Of a DNA stretch of 64,000 bases, positions 11,479 through 60,597 are shown piece after piece (within the stretch, counting starts at the first letter, position 1; each line of letters opens with the position of its first letter). The stretch is taken from the NCBI RefSeq assembly GCF_011043775.1, contig NZ_JAAKXY010000005.1:372001-436000 (forward strand). Direction: 5' to 3'. The position numbers and the translations under genes were made by a program. Below the pieces are notes generated by a model. The model was not told the origin of the DNA. It was given only the letters and a program-made list of their open reading frames with translations, and did not search any database. The DNA comes from Natronolimnobius sp. AArcel1 (lineage in GTDB: Archaea; Halobacteriota; Halobacteria; Halobacteriales; Natrialbaceae).

Positions 11479-11689
11479 TACCCGTGTAAGGCTGGTCGAT
11501 GGATCAGCCCCTGGCTACATTTTATCGAATCTAAAAACCAGGAAATAATACTGTAATATTGTTTCAGGGCCTGACGAGAGCGTATAGTAGCTTATAGAAT
11601 CTTTCAGAAGAGTAGCTGGTGGCAATTCCGAGAGTGGAAGTGACATACCGGCCACAATCTCTTTCAGCACGTACACATATCACTCGCTA

Positions 11690-40312: not shown

Positions 40313-40735
40313 CTACACATGACCAAATCGCTGTCCGGTGATCTCTACTGGCTCGAGTCGATAGAATTCCATCGACAACTCCCGAAGCGGTTTTTCCGGG
40401 TGGATATCGAATGTTGGCATCGTTGCATTTTCAGCAACCGCTTTTGCCGCATGTGGGTGTTTGTCGGGTGGGACCTCTTCAAGAGGGCCACGGGCAACGA
40501 CGCTTTCTGATGGGGTTTCGGTAAACACTGTGACGGTAGCGATTTCAGTTGTATCGATGAATCGCATTTTCTTACTATCGTCAGCAGCGACAAACTGGAA
40601 GTAGAGATAGTCACCGTCATAGCCCACTGAGTGTGGAAGCGCGTATGTTTCTGTTCCGTTCGTCAACGACAAGATACCAGTTCCGGTGTCTGATAGAATA
40701 GTGTCTATTGTAGTCCGACTCAGTCGCTCAACCAT
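40313..40735 (-). CDS. Pyridoxamine 5'-phosphate oxidase-like split-barrel protein
   Basis: 140 residues (MVERLSRTTIDTILSDTGTG). Split-barrel pattern: GTGILSLTNGTETYALPHSV, YLYFQFVAADDSKKMRFIDT, TVFTETPSESVVARGPLEEV. Shares layout with 34473-34916, including the ending where a short acidic helix is followed by LExVxIxGQ-type residues. FMN or F420 binding is expected. Its start faces the 84-base element at 40861. Confidence 0.87.
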   Translation of the reverse strand: MVERLSRTTIDTILSDTGTGILSLTNGTETYALPHSVGYDGDYLYFQFVAADDSKKMRFIDTTEIATVTVFTETPSESVVARGPLEEVPPDKHPHAAKAVAENATMPTFDIHPEKPLRELSMEFYRLEPVEITGQRFGHV

Positions 40736-40860: not shown

Positions 40861-40944
40861 TATAGTAACAACTGAAACTGTTTACACACCAATCGCATGA
40901 CGGCTATGCGATTGGGTGTGCACTGACTGTCAATGGCTACTATA
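40861..40944 (-). repeat. 84-base palindromic element, copy A (inverted, loop flipped)
   Basis: Begins TATAGTAACAACTGAAAC and ends GTCAATGGCTACTATA. The centre is a hairpin with arms CCAATCGCAT and ATGCGATTGG around the seven-base loop GACGGCT. Flanks match the reverse complement of copy B almost base for base, whereas the loop reads in the same direction as in copy B. The element lies about 100 bases upstream of a membrane-protein gene. Confidence 0.85.
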
Positions 40945-41047: not shown

Positions 41048-41473
41048 ATGGTCGTCTCCCAGCAGTTGCTCGTTCGAACAATTCATGTGCTGGCTGCGGC
41101 CGGATTGTTCGGTGGCTCGAGTGCTCTCTGGGCCGTGTTCTGGGCACAACACGGAGCCACTGTTCGACTGCTAATCCGATTCGAAGTTGCGTTCTGGATT
41201 CTGCTGTCAGGACTCGTCTTCACGGGGCTTGGAAACCTGGGTTGGTTTGGAGTTCCACACGCAGAAACAACAGCTGGGACACTCCTAGTGGCCAAGTTTC
41301 TCATCGTGCTCTGTCTGGTGTTTGGCTCCATTGTTCGCTCGTTCTGTGTCGTTCGACTCTCGAGGGCAACTGTGACGGAAACGAATGCGTCGGTTCTGCG
41401 GTGGTGCTATGCACTAACAGGAATCACAGCAGGCGTACTAATCGTTCTTGCGGGGGTGCTTGTCCATGGATAA
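41048..41473 (+). CDS. Four-helix membrane protein, hypothetical
   Basis: 141 residues (MVVSQQLLVRTIHVLAAAGL). Four hydrophobic segments: about 8-30, 42-62 (VAFWILLSGLVFTGLGNLGW), 76-97 and 115-138. It has some CopD-like layout with an N-terminal H (TIHVLAAAG), but no certain copper or heme ligands. The stop overlaps the start of the next gene by eight bases, so they form an operon. The gene follows copy A of the 84-base element. Confidence 0.75.
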   Translation: MVVSQQLLVRTIHVLAAAGLFGGSSALWAVFWAQHGATVRLLIRFEVAFWILLSGLVFTGLGNLGWFGVPHAETTAGTLLVAKFLIVLCLVFGSIVRSFCVVRLSRATVTETNASVLRWCYALTGITAGVLIVLAGVLVHG

Positions 41474-53823: not shown

Positions 53824-54112
53824 AGCTGACGATACAGACCCAGTCGGTAAAACATATACGGTGACTTCCACGCGATAGGAGCGTATGGTCAAACAGCCAA
53901 TATTATTCAGTATGCATGTTTATATTGGCACGCAGAAATTCATTTACGGGCATACCTATGTAATCCCCTATATGACGGGTTTTTATATGTCGACCTACCT
54001 ATTCTCGTCACCGACTCGAGAGAGTCTGCTCTAGGGGTGGATGGAGACAGGCTGTCCCGTGACGGTGGGAATCACCACAACATCGAAGTACCGAATATCC
54101 TACAGTCGAAAT

Positions 54113-55618
54113 ATGAGCCACGACAACGAACGAATGGTAACGCCACCTGAAACGGACGAAGGGTGGTACGTGCTCCACGATTTCCGGACGATCGAGTGGG
54201 ACGCGTGGCAAACAGCGACCGCCCATGAACGCACGCATGCACTCGAGTCCGGCATCTCCTTTCTCGAGTCCTGTGAAGCTGTTGACGATGCCCCAGATGG
54301 GGAGTCAGCTGTATTTACAGTACTCGGACATGAGGCCGATTTGCTGGTCATGCACCTCCGGCCGACACTAGATGAGCTCTCTGCACTCGAGCGCCAGTTC
54401 GAGCGAACGGGGCTTGGACAGTACACAAGTCGAAGCGCCTCATACGTCGCGATGACGGAAGTGTCGGGCTACGTGTCCGATGACTATTTTGCCGATGAGG
54501 AAGTCAGCCCTGGACTGCAACAGTACATCGATCGGAAGCTTAAGCCGTCGATCCCAGCCGACGAGTACATGTGTTTCTACCCGATGAACAAGCGTCGCGG
54601 GGAGCACGAAAACTGGTATACATTGCCCTTTGAAGAGCGAGCCGAGTTGATGGAGAGTCACGGTGCAATCGGGAAACAATACGCTGGTGAGGTGTCACAG
54701 GTCGTCTCTAACTCTGTCGGGTTAGATAGCCACGAATGGGGAATCACGCTGTTTGCGGACGATCCAGTTTCGCTCAAGGACATCGTCTACGAGATGCGAT
54801 TTGACGAAGCTTCGGCGAAGTACGGGGACTTTCCGTATTTTTATTCCGGTCGTCGATTCCCACCAGCCGACCTGGCAGCGTTCTTTGCGGGACAGACAGT
54901 TCCGACCGACGATGAGCAAGCAGACTCGGAGCGCTCACAACACGGTGCCAACAGCGACGCAATCGGTGGCCAGAGCGACGAATCAGACAGACACACAGGT
55001 CATCCCAGCGAGACGATAAAAACGGAGGGAGCCGACGCTGATGCTGCCTTGATCCGTGACGAACTGGCAGCACAGAATATTTACGCAGGTCAGCCCCACG
55101 GCGAAGACGTACACGCAACAGTGATCTACAGCACGGCGTCGCCAGAGACGCTGTTCGACGAAATCGAGGCCCTTCGACCAAACTTCGAGCACTACGAAAC
55201 CCACGTCAAAACCGCCGTCTATGAGGGAGATACGCAATCGGCTGTTGTCTCACTTTGGGAGACCGCTTCCGCGGCAGAAACGGCAGCCGGCTTCCTCTCA
55301 GAACTGCCAGCTGTTGTTGAGCGCGAACGCGAGTCCGGTTTCGGAACGATGGGACTATTCTATACCGTCGTCCCCGAGCATCGAGACGATTTCGTCGGTA
55401 CATTCGAAGATGTCGGTTCCCAACTCGAGGAGATGGACGGTCATCACGATTCAACACTGCTCGTCAACGTCGAAGACGAACAGGATATGTTCATCTCAAG
55501 CCAGTGGGACTCGAAAGCGGATGCAATGACGTTCTTCGGCTCAGATGCCTTCGCTGAAACTGTCGATTACGGGCGTGATATCTTAGCGGATCGGCCACGA
55601 CACGTCTTTCTCGAGTAA
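54113..55618 (+). CDS. HemQ (chlorite dismutase family)-ABM fusion, PitA-like
   Basis: 501 residues from the ATG at 54113. Residues of about 12-275 form a HemQ/chlorite-dismutase domain: CFYPMNKRRGEHENWYTLPF, HGAIGKQYAGEVSQVVSNSV (axial His183) and WGITLFADDPVSLKDIVYEM. An acidic linker (280-310) follows, then an antibiotic-biosynthesis-monooxygenase (ABM) ferredoxin-like domain (HATVIYSTASPETLFDEIEA; ISSQWDSKADAMTFFGSDAF). Haloferax PitA has this same fusion. HemQ decarboxylates coproheme to heme b, so the gene can feed heme to the ccm genes beside it. Confidence 0.92.
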   Translation: MSHDNERMVTPPETDEGWYVLHDFRTIEWDAWQTATAHERTHALESGISFLESCEAVDDAPDGESAVFTVLGHEADLLVMHLRPTLDELSALERQFERTGLGQYTSRSASYVAMTEVSGYVSDDYFADEEVSPGLQQYIDRKLKPSIPADEYMCFYPMNKRRGEHENWYTLPFEERAELMESHGAIGKQYAGEVSQVVSNSVGLDSHEWGITLFADDPVSLKDIVYEMRFDEASAKYGDFPYFYSGRRFPPADLAAFFAGQTVPTDDEQADSERSQHGANSDAIGGQSDESDRHTGHPSETIKTEGADADAALIRDELAAQNIYAGQPHGEDVHATVIYSTASPETLFDEIEALRPNFEHYETHVKTAVYEGDTQSAVVSLWETASAAETAAGFLSELPAVVERERESGFGTMGLFYTVVPEHRDDFVGTFEDVGSQLEEMDGHHDSTLLVNVEDEQDMFISSQWDSKADAMTFFGSDAFAETVDYGRDILADRPRHVFLE

Positions 55619-56515: not shown

Positions 56516-56599
56516 TATAGTAGCCACTGACAGTCAGTGCACACCCAATCGCATGACGGCTATGCGATTGGTGTGTAAACAGTTTCAGTTGTTACTATA
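56516..56599 (+). repeat. 84-base palindromic element, copy B
   Basis: TATAGTAGCCACTGACAG at the left, CAGTTTCAGTTGTTACTATA at the right; central hairpin arms CCAATCGCAT and ATGCGATTGG around loop GACGGCT. Same length as copies A and C. It is 190 bases upstream of an HTH_10 gene. Confidence 0.85.
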
Positions 56600-56789
56600 G
56601 ATACGAACACCGCTCGCCGATTCTGTGTCTGTATATAAACACCTGTAATATGTAGCGTCAGGTGTATCTGATTCCACACCAACATTCTGATATGAGCCGT
56701 GCATTTCAGCCATCTAGATGCGATTGGCCGCGGCACGCGGCGTTCGAACAACGGTCACATCCGACTCCAACACGCTGGAGGGTCCACCA

Positions 56790-57200
56790 ATGAGTACTGA
56801 CGACACCGACACCAACCCTGAATCCGTTATTGAAGGCACATCGGTCGACTCTGTGAAAGTATCGATGGTCGTCTCAGAGATCGATACTGCCCAGGAGTTC
56901 GTTCGCTGTCTGGAACAACACGATGCAACGGTTCACCCCGAAAGCCTTCGTATCTCACCCCCAACAGCAGACACTGTTACAATCGACACTGACGCCATTA
57001 CGGTCAAACAATGGGAAGCACTCGAGTTGGCACAGGAGCTAGGCTACTACGAAAGCCCGCGAGAAGCCAATCTCGAGGATATTGCAAACGAACTCTCGGT
57101 CTCACGTTCGGCAGTTTCACAGCGACTCCGAGGGGCTGAGTCAACGTTAATTGGGCGTATCGCGACCGAACTTCGGGCGGAACTCACTGAGTCAAGCTAG
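56790..57200 (+). CDS. HTH_10 (Bat-type) regulator, short
   Basis: 136 residues from the ATG at 56790 (MSTDDTDTNPESVIEGTSVD), with GGAGGG-like purines upstream. Beta-rich N-terminal part, then the HTH_10 domain: ITVKQWEALELAQELGYYES plus LEDIANELSVSRSAVSQRLR. It lacks GAF/PAS sensor domains. The stop overlaps that of the convergent HTH_10 gene by 17 bases. The DNA-binding helix is nearly the same as in its two neighbours. Confidence 0.88.
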   Translation: MSTDDTDTNPESVIEGTSVDSVKVSMVVSEIDTAQEFVRCLEQHDATVHPESLRISPPTADTVTIDTDAITVKQWEALELAQELGYYESPREANLEDIANELSVSRSAVSQRLRGAESTLIGRIATELRAELTESS

Positions 57201-57843
57201 CCGAGTCAGGGTCGGCACGATCGACAAGTGACACAATGAGTTTTGATTCGACTGCATTCAGTCGCTGTGAAACAGCAGATTCGGTAATCTCGAGGCGATC
57301 GGCTAAGTCAGTCAGTGTGATTTCTCGAGGCTGATCGTAGTAGCCGAGTTCGACAGCGAGTTCGATGGCGGTCCATTGCTTGGACGTGATCACAGAGGTG
57401 TCGAGTTCAGTTGTTTCCGTGCCCTCATCACTGAACCGAGTGAGGTGGCGAAGCGTGACCGATGCACCACTGTCTGTAACCGCCTCAATGAGGTCCGAAA
57501 GCAGTGCTCGCTCTGTGATTGTGACCGTGATGATGAGTGCTCCGTTCTCAACAGCGTCGATACTGTAGACACACTCAAATGCGTCCAAAACTGCACAAAT
57601 ACAGGTTTCCGGTGTTTCCTGTGTGACGTACAGTGATTCACGGTCACCGTCCTCACAGACAGTCGCTGTTCCACGACACGTACCATCGGGTGCGCGATTC
57701 TGTGACACAGCTACGGCATGGTGGGTTTGTGAGAGAAGGGCACAGCCTACCGTTGGTCCTGGCTCGACCGCAATCGTCGCCTGCAGTGGCGTCGCTGTCG
57801 CTGAAGATGATGAAGACGGAGACTGACGCTGATCAGACACCAT
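57184..57843 (-). CDS. HTH_10 (Bat-type) regulator, medium length
   Basis: 219 residues from the ATG at 57843 (MVSDQRQSPSSSSSATATPL). N-terminal 130 residues are beta-rich (ATIAVEPGPTVGCALLSQTH, VTITERALLSDLIEAVTDSG), a Bat-associated sensor-like domain; the C-terminus is HTH_10 (ITSKQWTAIELAVELGYYDQ, LTDLADRLEITESAVSQRLN). Its start faces copy C of the 84-base element. Likely ligand or partner unknown. Confidence 0.88.
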   Translation of the reverse strand: MVSDQRQSPSSSSSATATPLQATIAVEPGPTVGCALLSQTHHAVAVSQNRAPDGTCRGTATVCEDGDRESLYVTQETPETCICAVLDAFECVYSIDAVENGALIITVTITERALLSDLIEAVTDSGASVTLRHLTRFSDEGTETTELDTSVITSKQWTAIELAVELGYYDQPREITLTDLADRLEITESAVSQRLNAVESKLIVSLVDRADPDSASLTQ

Positions 57844-57913
57844 ACGTTCGCTACGAGCACCGAAATTGTATACCAACAGGGTTCTTCCAGACCGATGGGA
57901 ACACCGATCGTAA

Positions 57914-57997
57914 TATAGTAGCCACTGCAAGTCACTGCACACCTGATCGCACGACGACTGTGCGATCAGTGTGTAACTAGTTGCAGTTGTTACTATA
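57914..57997 (+). repeat. 84-base palindromic element, copy C
   Basis: TATAGTAGCCACTGCAAG at the left and AGTTGCAGTTGTTACTATA at the right; hairpin arms CTGATCGCAC and GTGCGATCAG around loop GACGACT. Arms differ from copies A and B by matched changes on both sides, so pairing is kept. It lies between two divergent HTH_10 regulator genes, about 70-80 bases from each start. Confidence 0.85.
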
Positions 57998-58077: not shown

Positions 58078-60597
58078 ATGGATGGCACTGACGGATCGAA
58101 CACGCGCGAAAACCCAGCGCAGTTGGATCAGGGGAGCCAGTTATTCTACGATATCAGCCAGGCGATTGCAGCCGCTGAAACCGTCTCAGATGGACTGCAG
58201 GCTGTACTCTCTGAAGTCTGTGCACTCACAGAGTGGGCCTACGGCGAAGTGTGGGTCCCAAACGAGGATCGAACGAGGTTACGTCATGACTCATCGTATA
58301 CATTCAAGGAAGGCTTCGATGAGTTCAAACAGATCTCACGCGAGACAACGTTTGCGCGCGACGAGGGACTCCCAGGACGAGTATGGGAGAGCCTGCATAC
58401 CGAATGGATCGACGACGTCGCAGCCTTGCCACCAGAACAGTACCTCCGAACTGACGCTGCCGAGCAGGCAGATCTCAACGCAGCCTACGGGGTTCCGATC
58501 ATCGCCGAAGATCGACTCGAGGCCGTCCTCGTGTTCTATCTTACCGAAACGCGACCCGTTGATGACCGGCTGAGCCGGATCGTCGAAACGGTTGCCGAAA
58601 ATCTTGGCTCGTTTGTCGAGCGGAAACGAACCGAACAGAGACTGCGGGCAGAACGCTCGATTCTCGGCCAGCTGTTCGAGTCGGCCCCCGTCGGAATCGT
58701 CGTCGTCGACCCGGACGGTACTGTCGTTCGCACGAACGCGCGTGCAGCAGAGATGCTCGAAACAGCAGAGCAAGAACTACTCTCGTCGGTCTACACGGAG
58801 TTCGATATGACAGTCCTGGATCGCACTGGGTCTGTGCTTGCACCGGACCAGCGGCCAATCAGTCGCGTCCTCGAAACTGAATCACCGATCAACGAACTGG
58901 AACTCGGACTCGAGCAACAGGACGGATCCAGACTGTGGGTCTCGGTCGATGCAGCACCGCTTTTCGATACCGACGGGCAACTCGAGCGAGCCATCGTCGT
59001 CCTCAAAGACGTCACGAACCGCTCAACGCGAGAACGTGAGCTACAGACGTTCAAAGAAGGTTTCGAACAGGCAGGTGCCGCACTATACACACTGACAACA
59101 GCGGGTGATATCGAGTACGTCAACGACCAGTTCGAAGTGGCGACCGGCTACGACCGCGACACCGCAATCGGAGCCACGCTCGAGTCGCTCCTGTCAAACG
59201 ATGACGAGACACTCGATGCACTGTGGTCGACTGTCCGTGACGGAACCATCTGGTCCGGTGAGAGTACCAACCAACGGGCAAACGGCGAATCCTATCCGGT
59301 GGCCCGAACAGTAGCCCCGGTAACGACTGCAGCAGGCGAGCGTGCCCGATTCATCGGCATCGATGTCGATATCTCCGAACAGATCGATCGTGAGACGACA
59401 CTCCGACATCACCGAAACTCGCTGGATCGAACCCGTCGCCTTCTCGAGACTAGTACCGATGCTCACGGCGCAGTTCTTGCAGCCTCGAGCGCGCAAGCAA
59501 TTCGAAGCGCCGTCTGTGAGTCCCTCGCTGACTCCCCGATGTACTCGTCGGCGTGGGTAGGACAAAAACAGTCAGATGGGACCGTATCCATTCGTAGCGC
59601 TGCTGGCGTCAATGAGCAAACACTCGAGGAGTCACTCACTACTGATGGCGTCCCCGACGTGTTCGAGCGCGCATACGAGACACGAACCGTTCAGTCACGA
59701 CCCCACCCAACTGTTGACGACGATGAAACGGCGGACGATACCACTGATGGTCGGTTTACCGTACACGGGACCCATGCAGTTTGTGCCGTTCCGATCGCAG
59801 ACGGAACGACAATGGATAGCGTCCTCTGTCTGAGCTCGACCCGTACGACCGCATTCGAGGAACTGGAGCAGCAACTCCTCACCACACTTGGAACACGCAT
59901 TGCGCTAGATATTGCAGCAGTCACCACTCGTGACGTGCTACAGTCGGACGACAGACTCGAGCTCGAGTTCGAAGTTGGACCGGTAGATCCGCTCGCTGCG
60001 TGTACTGATGGCCACGAGTGTCGTCTCGAGTCTGTTCGGATCGTTCCAAGTGACGACAGCCTGGTCCAGTATCTCGCCATCGAGGGTGAACCGATCGACG
60101 CAGTCCAGCAGCGATTGGCAGCCTCGCCTGCAGTGACTGGGCTAAGCCGCCACCAAAGCGCTGGTGAGACGGTCCTTCGCTGTCACACAACAACTGCCAC
60201 GCTGAATGCGACACTCGAGCGTGGTGGCGCAGCGGTGCGTTCAGCAACGTTCGCTGACGGTACTGGACGTGTCATTGTTGAGGTGTCTGCAAAAGACGAC
60301 CCACAACAACTGCTCGAGGACAGTCGCGACCGGTTTCCGGACGTCGAACTGGTGACAAAGCGAATTAGTACTACTGAAACCCACGCCGTGCCCACCAGTG
60401 ACGCATTTGATGCGCTTACCGACAAACAAGCAGATGTACTCGAGCTCGCTTATCGGTCGGGATACTTCGAGACACCACGACAGACCGATGGAAACGAACT
60501 TGCAGCCGACCTCGGTGTGTCGCCAGCGACTGTGTACCAACACCTGCGACGTGCACAACAGACCATACTCGAGTTACTCCTCGACGACGGGGGCTAG
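58078..60597 (+). CDS. Multi-domain Bat-like regulator (GAF-PAS-PAS-GAF-HTH_10)
   Basis: 839 residues (MDGTDGSNTRENPAQLDQGS). Order: GAF (about 20-185, with TEWAYGEVWVPNEDRTRLRH and GLPGRVWESLHTEWIDDVAA), PAS (about 195-320, SAPVGIVVVDPDGTVVRTNA), PAS (about 330-450, AGAALYTLTTAGDIEYVNDQ), GAF-like (about 470-640), Bat-associated domain (about 645-780), HTH_10 (about 785-835: FDALTDKQADVLELAYRSGY, ELAADLGVSPATVYQHLRRA). Such proteins sense light, redox or metabolites and regulate transcription, as bacterio-opsin activator does. Divergent from the short HTH_10 gene with copy C of the 84-base element between. Confidence 0.94.
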   Translation: MDGTDGSNTRENPAQLDQGSQLFYDISQAIAAAETVSDGLQAVLSEVCALTEWAYGEVWVPNEDRTRLRHDSSYTFKEGFDEFKQISRETTFARDEGLPGRVWESLHTEWIDDVAALPPEQYLRTDAAEQADLNAAYGVPIIAEDRLEAVLVFYLTETRPVDDRLSRIVETVAENLGSFVERKRTEQRLRAERSILGQLFESAPVGIVVVDPDGTVVRTNARAAEMLETAEQELLSSVYTEFDMTVLDRTGSVLAPDQRPISRVLETESPINELELGLEQQDGSRLWVSVDAAPLFDTDGQLERAIVVLKDVTNRSTRERELQTFKEGFEQAGAALYTLTTAGDIEYVNDQFEVATGYDRDTAIGATLESLLSNDDETLDALWSTVRDGTIWSGESTNQRANGESYPVARTVAPVTTAAGERARFIGIDVDISEQIDRETTLRHHRNSLDRTRRLLETSTDAHGAVLAASSAQAIRSAVCESLADSPMYSSAWVGQKQSDGTVSIRSAAGVNEQTLEESLTTDGVPDVFERAYETRTVQSRPHPTVDDDETADDTTDGRFTVHGTHAVCAVPIADGTTMDSVLCLSSTRTTAFEELEQQLLTTLGTRIALDIAAVTTRDVLQSDDRLELEFEVGPVDPLAACTDGHECRLESVRIVPSDDSLVQYLAIEGEPIDAVQQRLAASPAVTGLSRHQSAGETVLRCHTTTATLNATLERGGAAVRSATFADGTGRVIVEVSAKDDPQQLLEDSRDRFPDVELVTKRISTTETHAVPTSDAFDALTDKQADVLELAYRSGYFETPRQTDGNELAADLGVSPATVYQHLRRAQQTILELLLDDGG

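Follow-up and report, generated by a model that had tools for sequence, protein, structure and literature searches.

The window, by which we mean the whole stretch of 64,000 nucleotides from Natronolimnobius sp. AArcel1 analysed here, contains three palindromic elements of exactly 84 bp, as already claimed with these coordinates in a preliminary description of the same DNA. Their features are listed below, the copy at 56516 serving as reference.

40861..40944, minus strand: putative copy of a miniature transposable element (MITE), 84 bp, 93% to the reference; core of 80 bp (40863-40942) with the presumed TA duplication on each side; between the divergent ORFs 40313-40735(-) and 41048-41473(+)
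56516..56599, plus strand: putative MITE copy, 84 bp, reference copy
56516..56524, plus strand: terminal inverted repeat, GCC-type end TATAGTAGC, matching the right end TATAGTAG of an IS630 relative
56540..56575, plus strand: central hairpin CACACC-CAATCGCAT-loop-ATGCGATTG-GTGTG; the stem covaries family-wide and the loop is the site of expansions
56591..56599, minus strand: terminal inverted repeat, AAC-type end TATAGTAAC, matching the left end TATAGTAAC of the IS630 relative
57914..57997, plus strand: putative MITE copy, 84 bp, TGATCGCA subfamily, 85% to the reference; between the divergent HTH_10 genes 57184-57843(-) and 58078-60597(+)

The elements are non-coding and contain no transposase gene. 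Set to one orientation, the three copies have a mean column identity of about 92%. The copy at 40861, which lies in reverse orientation, has its centre loop inverted relative to its own arms. For the copy at 56516, 98-99% identical copies exist elsewhere in the same genome and a 100% identical one in the sister species (G001); downstream of this copy, at about 56632-56640, there is a separate TATATAAA sequence. As single strands the three copies fold with -21.3, -15.7 and -24.8 kcal/mol (z = -5.0, -4.2 and -6.2, respectively) and none of their shuffled versions folds as well, which bears out the strong central hairpin noted before; the ends are indeed imperfect inverted repeats (TATAGTARC…GYTACTATA).

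The distances to gene starts had been given as about 100-190 bases. The proximity stands, and the measured range is 70-125 bp: 103 bp from the 40861 copy to the ORF at 41048 and 125 bp to 40735(-), 118 bp from the 56516 copy to 56718(+), and 70 bp to 57843(-) and 80 bp to 58078(+) for the 57914 copy. The neighbours of the latter two copies encode HTH_10 proteins, as had been claimed. These gene-start and HTH_10 positions are not representative of the family, and the link to HTH_10 genes is local to the window. In the same region a single ORF (54041-55618) fuses a chlorite dismutase-like and an ABM (monooxygenase) domain.

Structure and distribution of the element family

A sequence search of the own genome yielded 47 matches, far more than chance would give; E-values reach 1e-36 even with the query itself excluded, and about 40 of the matches are near-full-length copies. 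Many of these copies are 94-100% identical, which suggests a recent amplification, and near-identical copies sit at unrelated loci. The preliminary description had proposed to look for the 84-base sequence in haloarchaeal genomes, and there it was found in 42 out of 100 relatives, mostly from the host's own family but also in genomes of two other families of the order. Furthermore, 41 haloarchaeal plasmids carry the element in a plasmid search, their hosts being Natrinema, Natronorubrum, Natrialba, Haloarcula, Halomicrobium, Halostella and others. Among the matches listed in a scan of a wider collection, loci come from Natrialbaceae-type genera and Halostella. Neither the phage records searched nor Rfam gave a match. 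Two Haloarcula plasmids with nine copies each apparently correspond one-to-one by spacing, and no strain-level polymorphism was seen between them.

The length of the element is fixed: 187 of the 208 collected copies have exactly 84 bp. Positions 1-7 pair with 78-84 in 89-98% of the 170 unique copies, the ends being TATAGTAGCCACTG and TATAGTAACAACTG. Two mismatches are conserved (G-T at pair 8/77 and C-T at pair 10/75), which makes the repeat imperfect and allows the two ends of the element to be told apart. Within the stem, several pairs change on both sides: 31/55 (TA, CG), 32/54 (GC, AT), 38/48 (AT, CG) and 15/70 (AT, CG). In total 242 double-change cells were counted, against a shuffle mean of 82 and a maximum of 104; because these counts ignore the relatedness of the copies, they show that pairing is kept and not how many independent events occurred. 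Compensatory changes keep the hairpin stem paired. In five of the 170 unique 84-bp copies, including the one at 40861-40944 and L020 from the own genome, the loop is inverted relative to the arms, which suggests flips between inverted arms.

A few loci deserve separate mention. At L133 (3094-3377) two copies lie in opposite orientation about 118 bp apart, and the stretch beside the first copy matches a repeat of many haloarchaeal genomes that begins exactly at the element's end. In N. magadii, L126 (1436) and L125 (G026:C1:1193932) are single ends without the 84-bp body, which could be truncated copies or the ends of another element.

Insertion sites and the IS630-type relative

Sites with and without the element were compared, as had been proposed, by joining the flanks and searching them against related DNA. 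Five empty sites were obtained, whose junctions align without a gap if a single dinucleotide is retained:

Natronorubrum thiooxidans L202 versus N. sulfidifaciens L195: 302 bp without gaps at 90% identity
L076 (G001) versus L143 (own genome), the latter reading GGGG-TA-GTACCG
L021 versus L299
G001:C1:668375 versus L142
a paralogue inside L134

Each insertion thus adds a net 82 bp, which corresponds to the 80-bp core and a second copy of the target dinucleotide. Only one of the five sites reads TA at the retained dinucleotide, the others TG, TC, TC and CG; since the sites are 76-90% identical, drift is likely behind the non-TA cases. Consequently, the case for a TA duplication by the MITE itself is drawn mostly from the flanks and from the insertion sequence described below; at the empty sites it is the weakest step in the argument for mobility. 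Flank comparisons at L005, L065 and L071 gave ambiguous junctions. The flanks of the 208 copies have C at -1 in 69% of cases and G at +1 in 73%, and the two together in 50%, at a base frequency of about 0.31 each, so the preferred target is CTAG-like.

A full-length relative with the same ends and a transposase, which the preliminary description had suggested looking for, was found by a search for the DDE_3 family followed by inspection of the element ends. It is a 1059-bp insertion sequence (IS) of the IS630 family with the terminal inverted repeats TATAGTARNCGTTAGAA, bounded like the MITE by TATAGTA...TACTATA. Its two overlapping ORFs both match the NCBIfam IS630 transposase NF033545 and contain the Pfam domains HTH_33, HTH_32, HTH_29 and DDE_3 (PF13358). 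The terminal TATAGTA(A/G) is common to the MITE and these 1059-bp relatives, and in both the asymmetry at position 8 (A/G) tells the left end (TATAGTAACCGTTAGAA in the IS) from the right one (TATAGTAGNCGTTAGAA). The match between the inverted repeats of MITE and IS comprises only the 8-9 terminal bases, reaching 13-14 out of 17 in the best cases, and the ACTG block of the MITE is absent from every IS found. Most of the 21 IS matches listed are flanked by C...G, i.e. they have the same CTAG target as the MITE. In Natrialba magadii such an IS is even inserted into the internal CTAG of a MITE copy (L148; GTAAC-TA-GTTGC) with duplication of the TA, and L136 and L140 are intact siblings of this interrupted copy.

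Element ends 1-3 kb apart that enclose a transposase together with the ACTG block were not present among the matches listed for the own genome (G000), G001 and G026. Most of the unpaired ends examined are diverged 84-bp copies; one or two lead into loop-expanded forms and two are short solo ends. The DDE_3 search detected no such IS in the own genome. Six contigs of this assembly end 125-127 bp inside two identical IS end sequences:

C1: 1-127
C6: 484666 to the end
C7: 141375 to the end
C9: 104778-104904
C11: start
C16: 3459-3585

This implies at least three identical IS copies which were collapsed in the assembly, an artefact. Across the 100 genomes MITE and IS are found together more often than expected (26/16/12/46; Fisher p = 5e-5, and p = 0.008 if only the family is considered, at a limited search depth per genome). 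Some genomes have only one of the two, and in 14 genomes of the family the MITE is found without an IS detectable at the search depth used.

Taken together, the mobility of the element is well supported, and the earlier reading as a miniature transposable element is confirmed by the empty sites and by the transposase-bearing relative with the same ends. We define here a new and widespread IS630-type MITE family of haloarchaea. Very probably it belongs to the IS630/Tc1-mariner group, as an 80-bp non-coding element that is flanked by a presumably duplicated TA and probably moved in trans. We infer that an IS630 transposase is the mover: the enzyme of the resident 1059-bp IS would recognise the terminal TATAGTA(A/G), cut out the element and paste it into a TA, preferably within CTAG, whereby the target TA would be duplicated.

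Beside these complete elements, the window contains at 11583-11599 the sequence TATAGTAGCTTATAGAA, with one mismatch to a relaxed IS630-end pattern. It lies alone in AT-rich DNA and is possibly a remnant.

Genomic context, competing explanations and known systems

Genes around the copies were called with a simple codon-usage gene finder, which gave 664 genes and 84% coding in an 800-kb control. Out of 143 classifiable insertions 16 are intragenic and 127 intergenic. Of the intergenic copies 44 lie between convergent genes (35%, versus 16% of the intergenic bases; binomial p = 3e-7), 60 between co-directional genes and 23 between divergent genes, the last without enrichment. With two exceptions, the best matches in the annotated plasmid records fall outside the annotated genes. 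Selection against harmful insertions would leave such a bias, which argues against a promoter role, although single copies may still have an effect. The delivery of promoters or operators suggested in the preliminary description is thus not supported, and the element appears to have no conserved regulatory role. That the copies are conserved, non-mobile cis-regulatory sequences (operators or promoters) of regulator genes is what the window taken by itself might suggest, with its three copies 70-125 bp from gene starts, two of them beside HTH_10 genes, and with TATA-like ends. However, relatives have empty sites, which largely refute this explanation, near-identical copies occur at unrelated loci, and the enrichment is between convergent and not divergent genes, which makes it highly improbable.

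Two further explanations concern mobile elements of other kinds. Short mobile repeats (SMRs) of Haloquadratum walsbyi are reported to have no transposon-like ends, to cause no target duplication and to prefer PATE/IS605 palindromes (PMC3119063). Like our element they are haloarchaeal, present in many copies, 80-110 bp long, equipped with prominent terminal inverted repeats and associated with other mobile elements (PMC3119063), and one copy of the own genome (G000:C5:473205) directly adjoins a TnpB/IS605-type element at its 3' end. But the ends and the target of the MITE match IS630, whereas SMRs are described as having inverted repeats unrelated to transposons, and most MITE copies lie in ordinary intergenic DNA. 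We therefore regard an SMR as very unlikely. Less likely still, and hardly credible, is an element of the PATE or REP-like kind that an IS200/IS605 Y1 transposase would move as a single-stranded DNA hairpin. The strong hairpins, a GTAG-like motif near one end and the abundance of IS605-type genes in the host genomes would fit, but PATEs, with their near-terminal palindromes and IS605 relation, have no terminal inverted repeats (PMC3119063), and they lack both the symmetric ends of the element and its TA/CTAG target.

The sequence that borders on the copy just mentioned (L002, own genome, C5:473205-473288) carries the annotation TnpB (IS605-type) in related plasmids, and the position of this copy at its end recalls the habit of SMRs to sit at IS605 ends.

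The closest analogue is RUP of Streptococcus pneumoniae with IS630-Spn1 (PMC2229807), a repeat of about 100 bp in about 100 copies, which likewise has inverted repeats resembling a resident IS630, a TA target, mostly intergenic positions and a proposed movement in trans. In contrast to this bacterial repeat, the haloarchaeal element measures 80 bp, its internal sequence is unrelated, its central hairpin covaries and its loop can be expanded, and it is found on plasmids, too. IS630/Tc1-mariner elements such as ISY100 and IS630 insert at TA with duplication (PMC2170065), and for IS630 a preference for TA in CTAG is reported (Tenzen and Ohtsubo 1991, as cited in PMC2170065). The haloarchaeal IS conforms to this group in its TA duplication and its two-ORF HTH and DDE_3 genes, whereas the 84-bp element lacks a transposase and has only the terminal 8-9 bases in common.

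The preliminary description knew of no account of this element, and in the open-licence literature, including a search for the end sequences, we also found none. What emerges is a clearly delimited MITE family with a likely autonomous partner across many haloarchaeal genera. Such a partnered example is useful because a haloarchaeal class of similar size, the SMRs, has been described with an enigmatic movement. The family explains many unannotated intergenic palindromes and may serve as a genetic marker and possibly as a transposition tool for haloarchaea. It also calls for caution, as the apparent link to regulator genes is incidental and fragmented assemblies can render the IS partner invisible.

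Loop expansions

Some copies are 125-408 bp long because their hairpin loop contains palindromic modules. Examples are L122 and L123 (N. magadii), L129, L130, L335 and L353 (G001) and L069 and L333 (own genome). The modules include GCGGTTCTCACTCACTTCGTTC, a tandem palindromic repeat in units of about 56 bp at the hairpin apex. A comparable organisation is known from Correia/NEMIS and other bacterial MITEs, which have a terminal TA, form hairpins, are reported to show inversion and fall into size classes by an internal insert, namely 107 and 155 bp (PMC2229807, PMC10969869). These differ from the present family in sequence and hosts, and in the haloarchaeal element the insert at the tip of the hairpin is made up of tandem repeats.

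The loops may have arisen by repeated insertion at the apex or by exchange of loops between copies, both of which are possible. We tentatively raise the idea, which we consider rather doubtful, that the apex acts as a docking site, at which foreign palindromic modules would lodge again and again and grow into tandem arrays, and at which the loop would be able to flip. If so, this would be a two-part hairpin element with arms moved by IS630 and a loop evolving by hairpin- or cruciform-driven events. When distinct genomic GCGGTTCTCACTCACTTCGTTC clusters from three genomes were tested, at least 14 out of 19 were flanked by MITE arms, either on both sides or on the one side that could be read, and loops bearing this module occur within several arm subfamilies and two genera.
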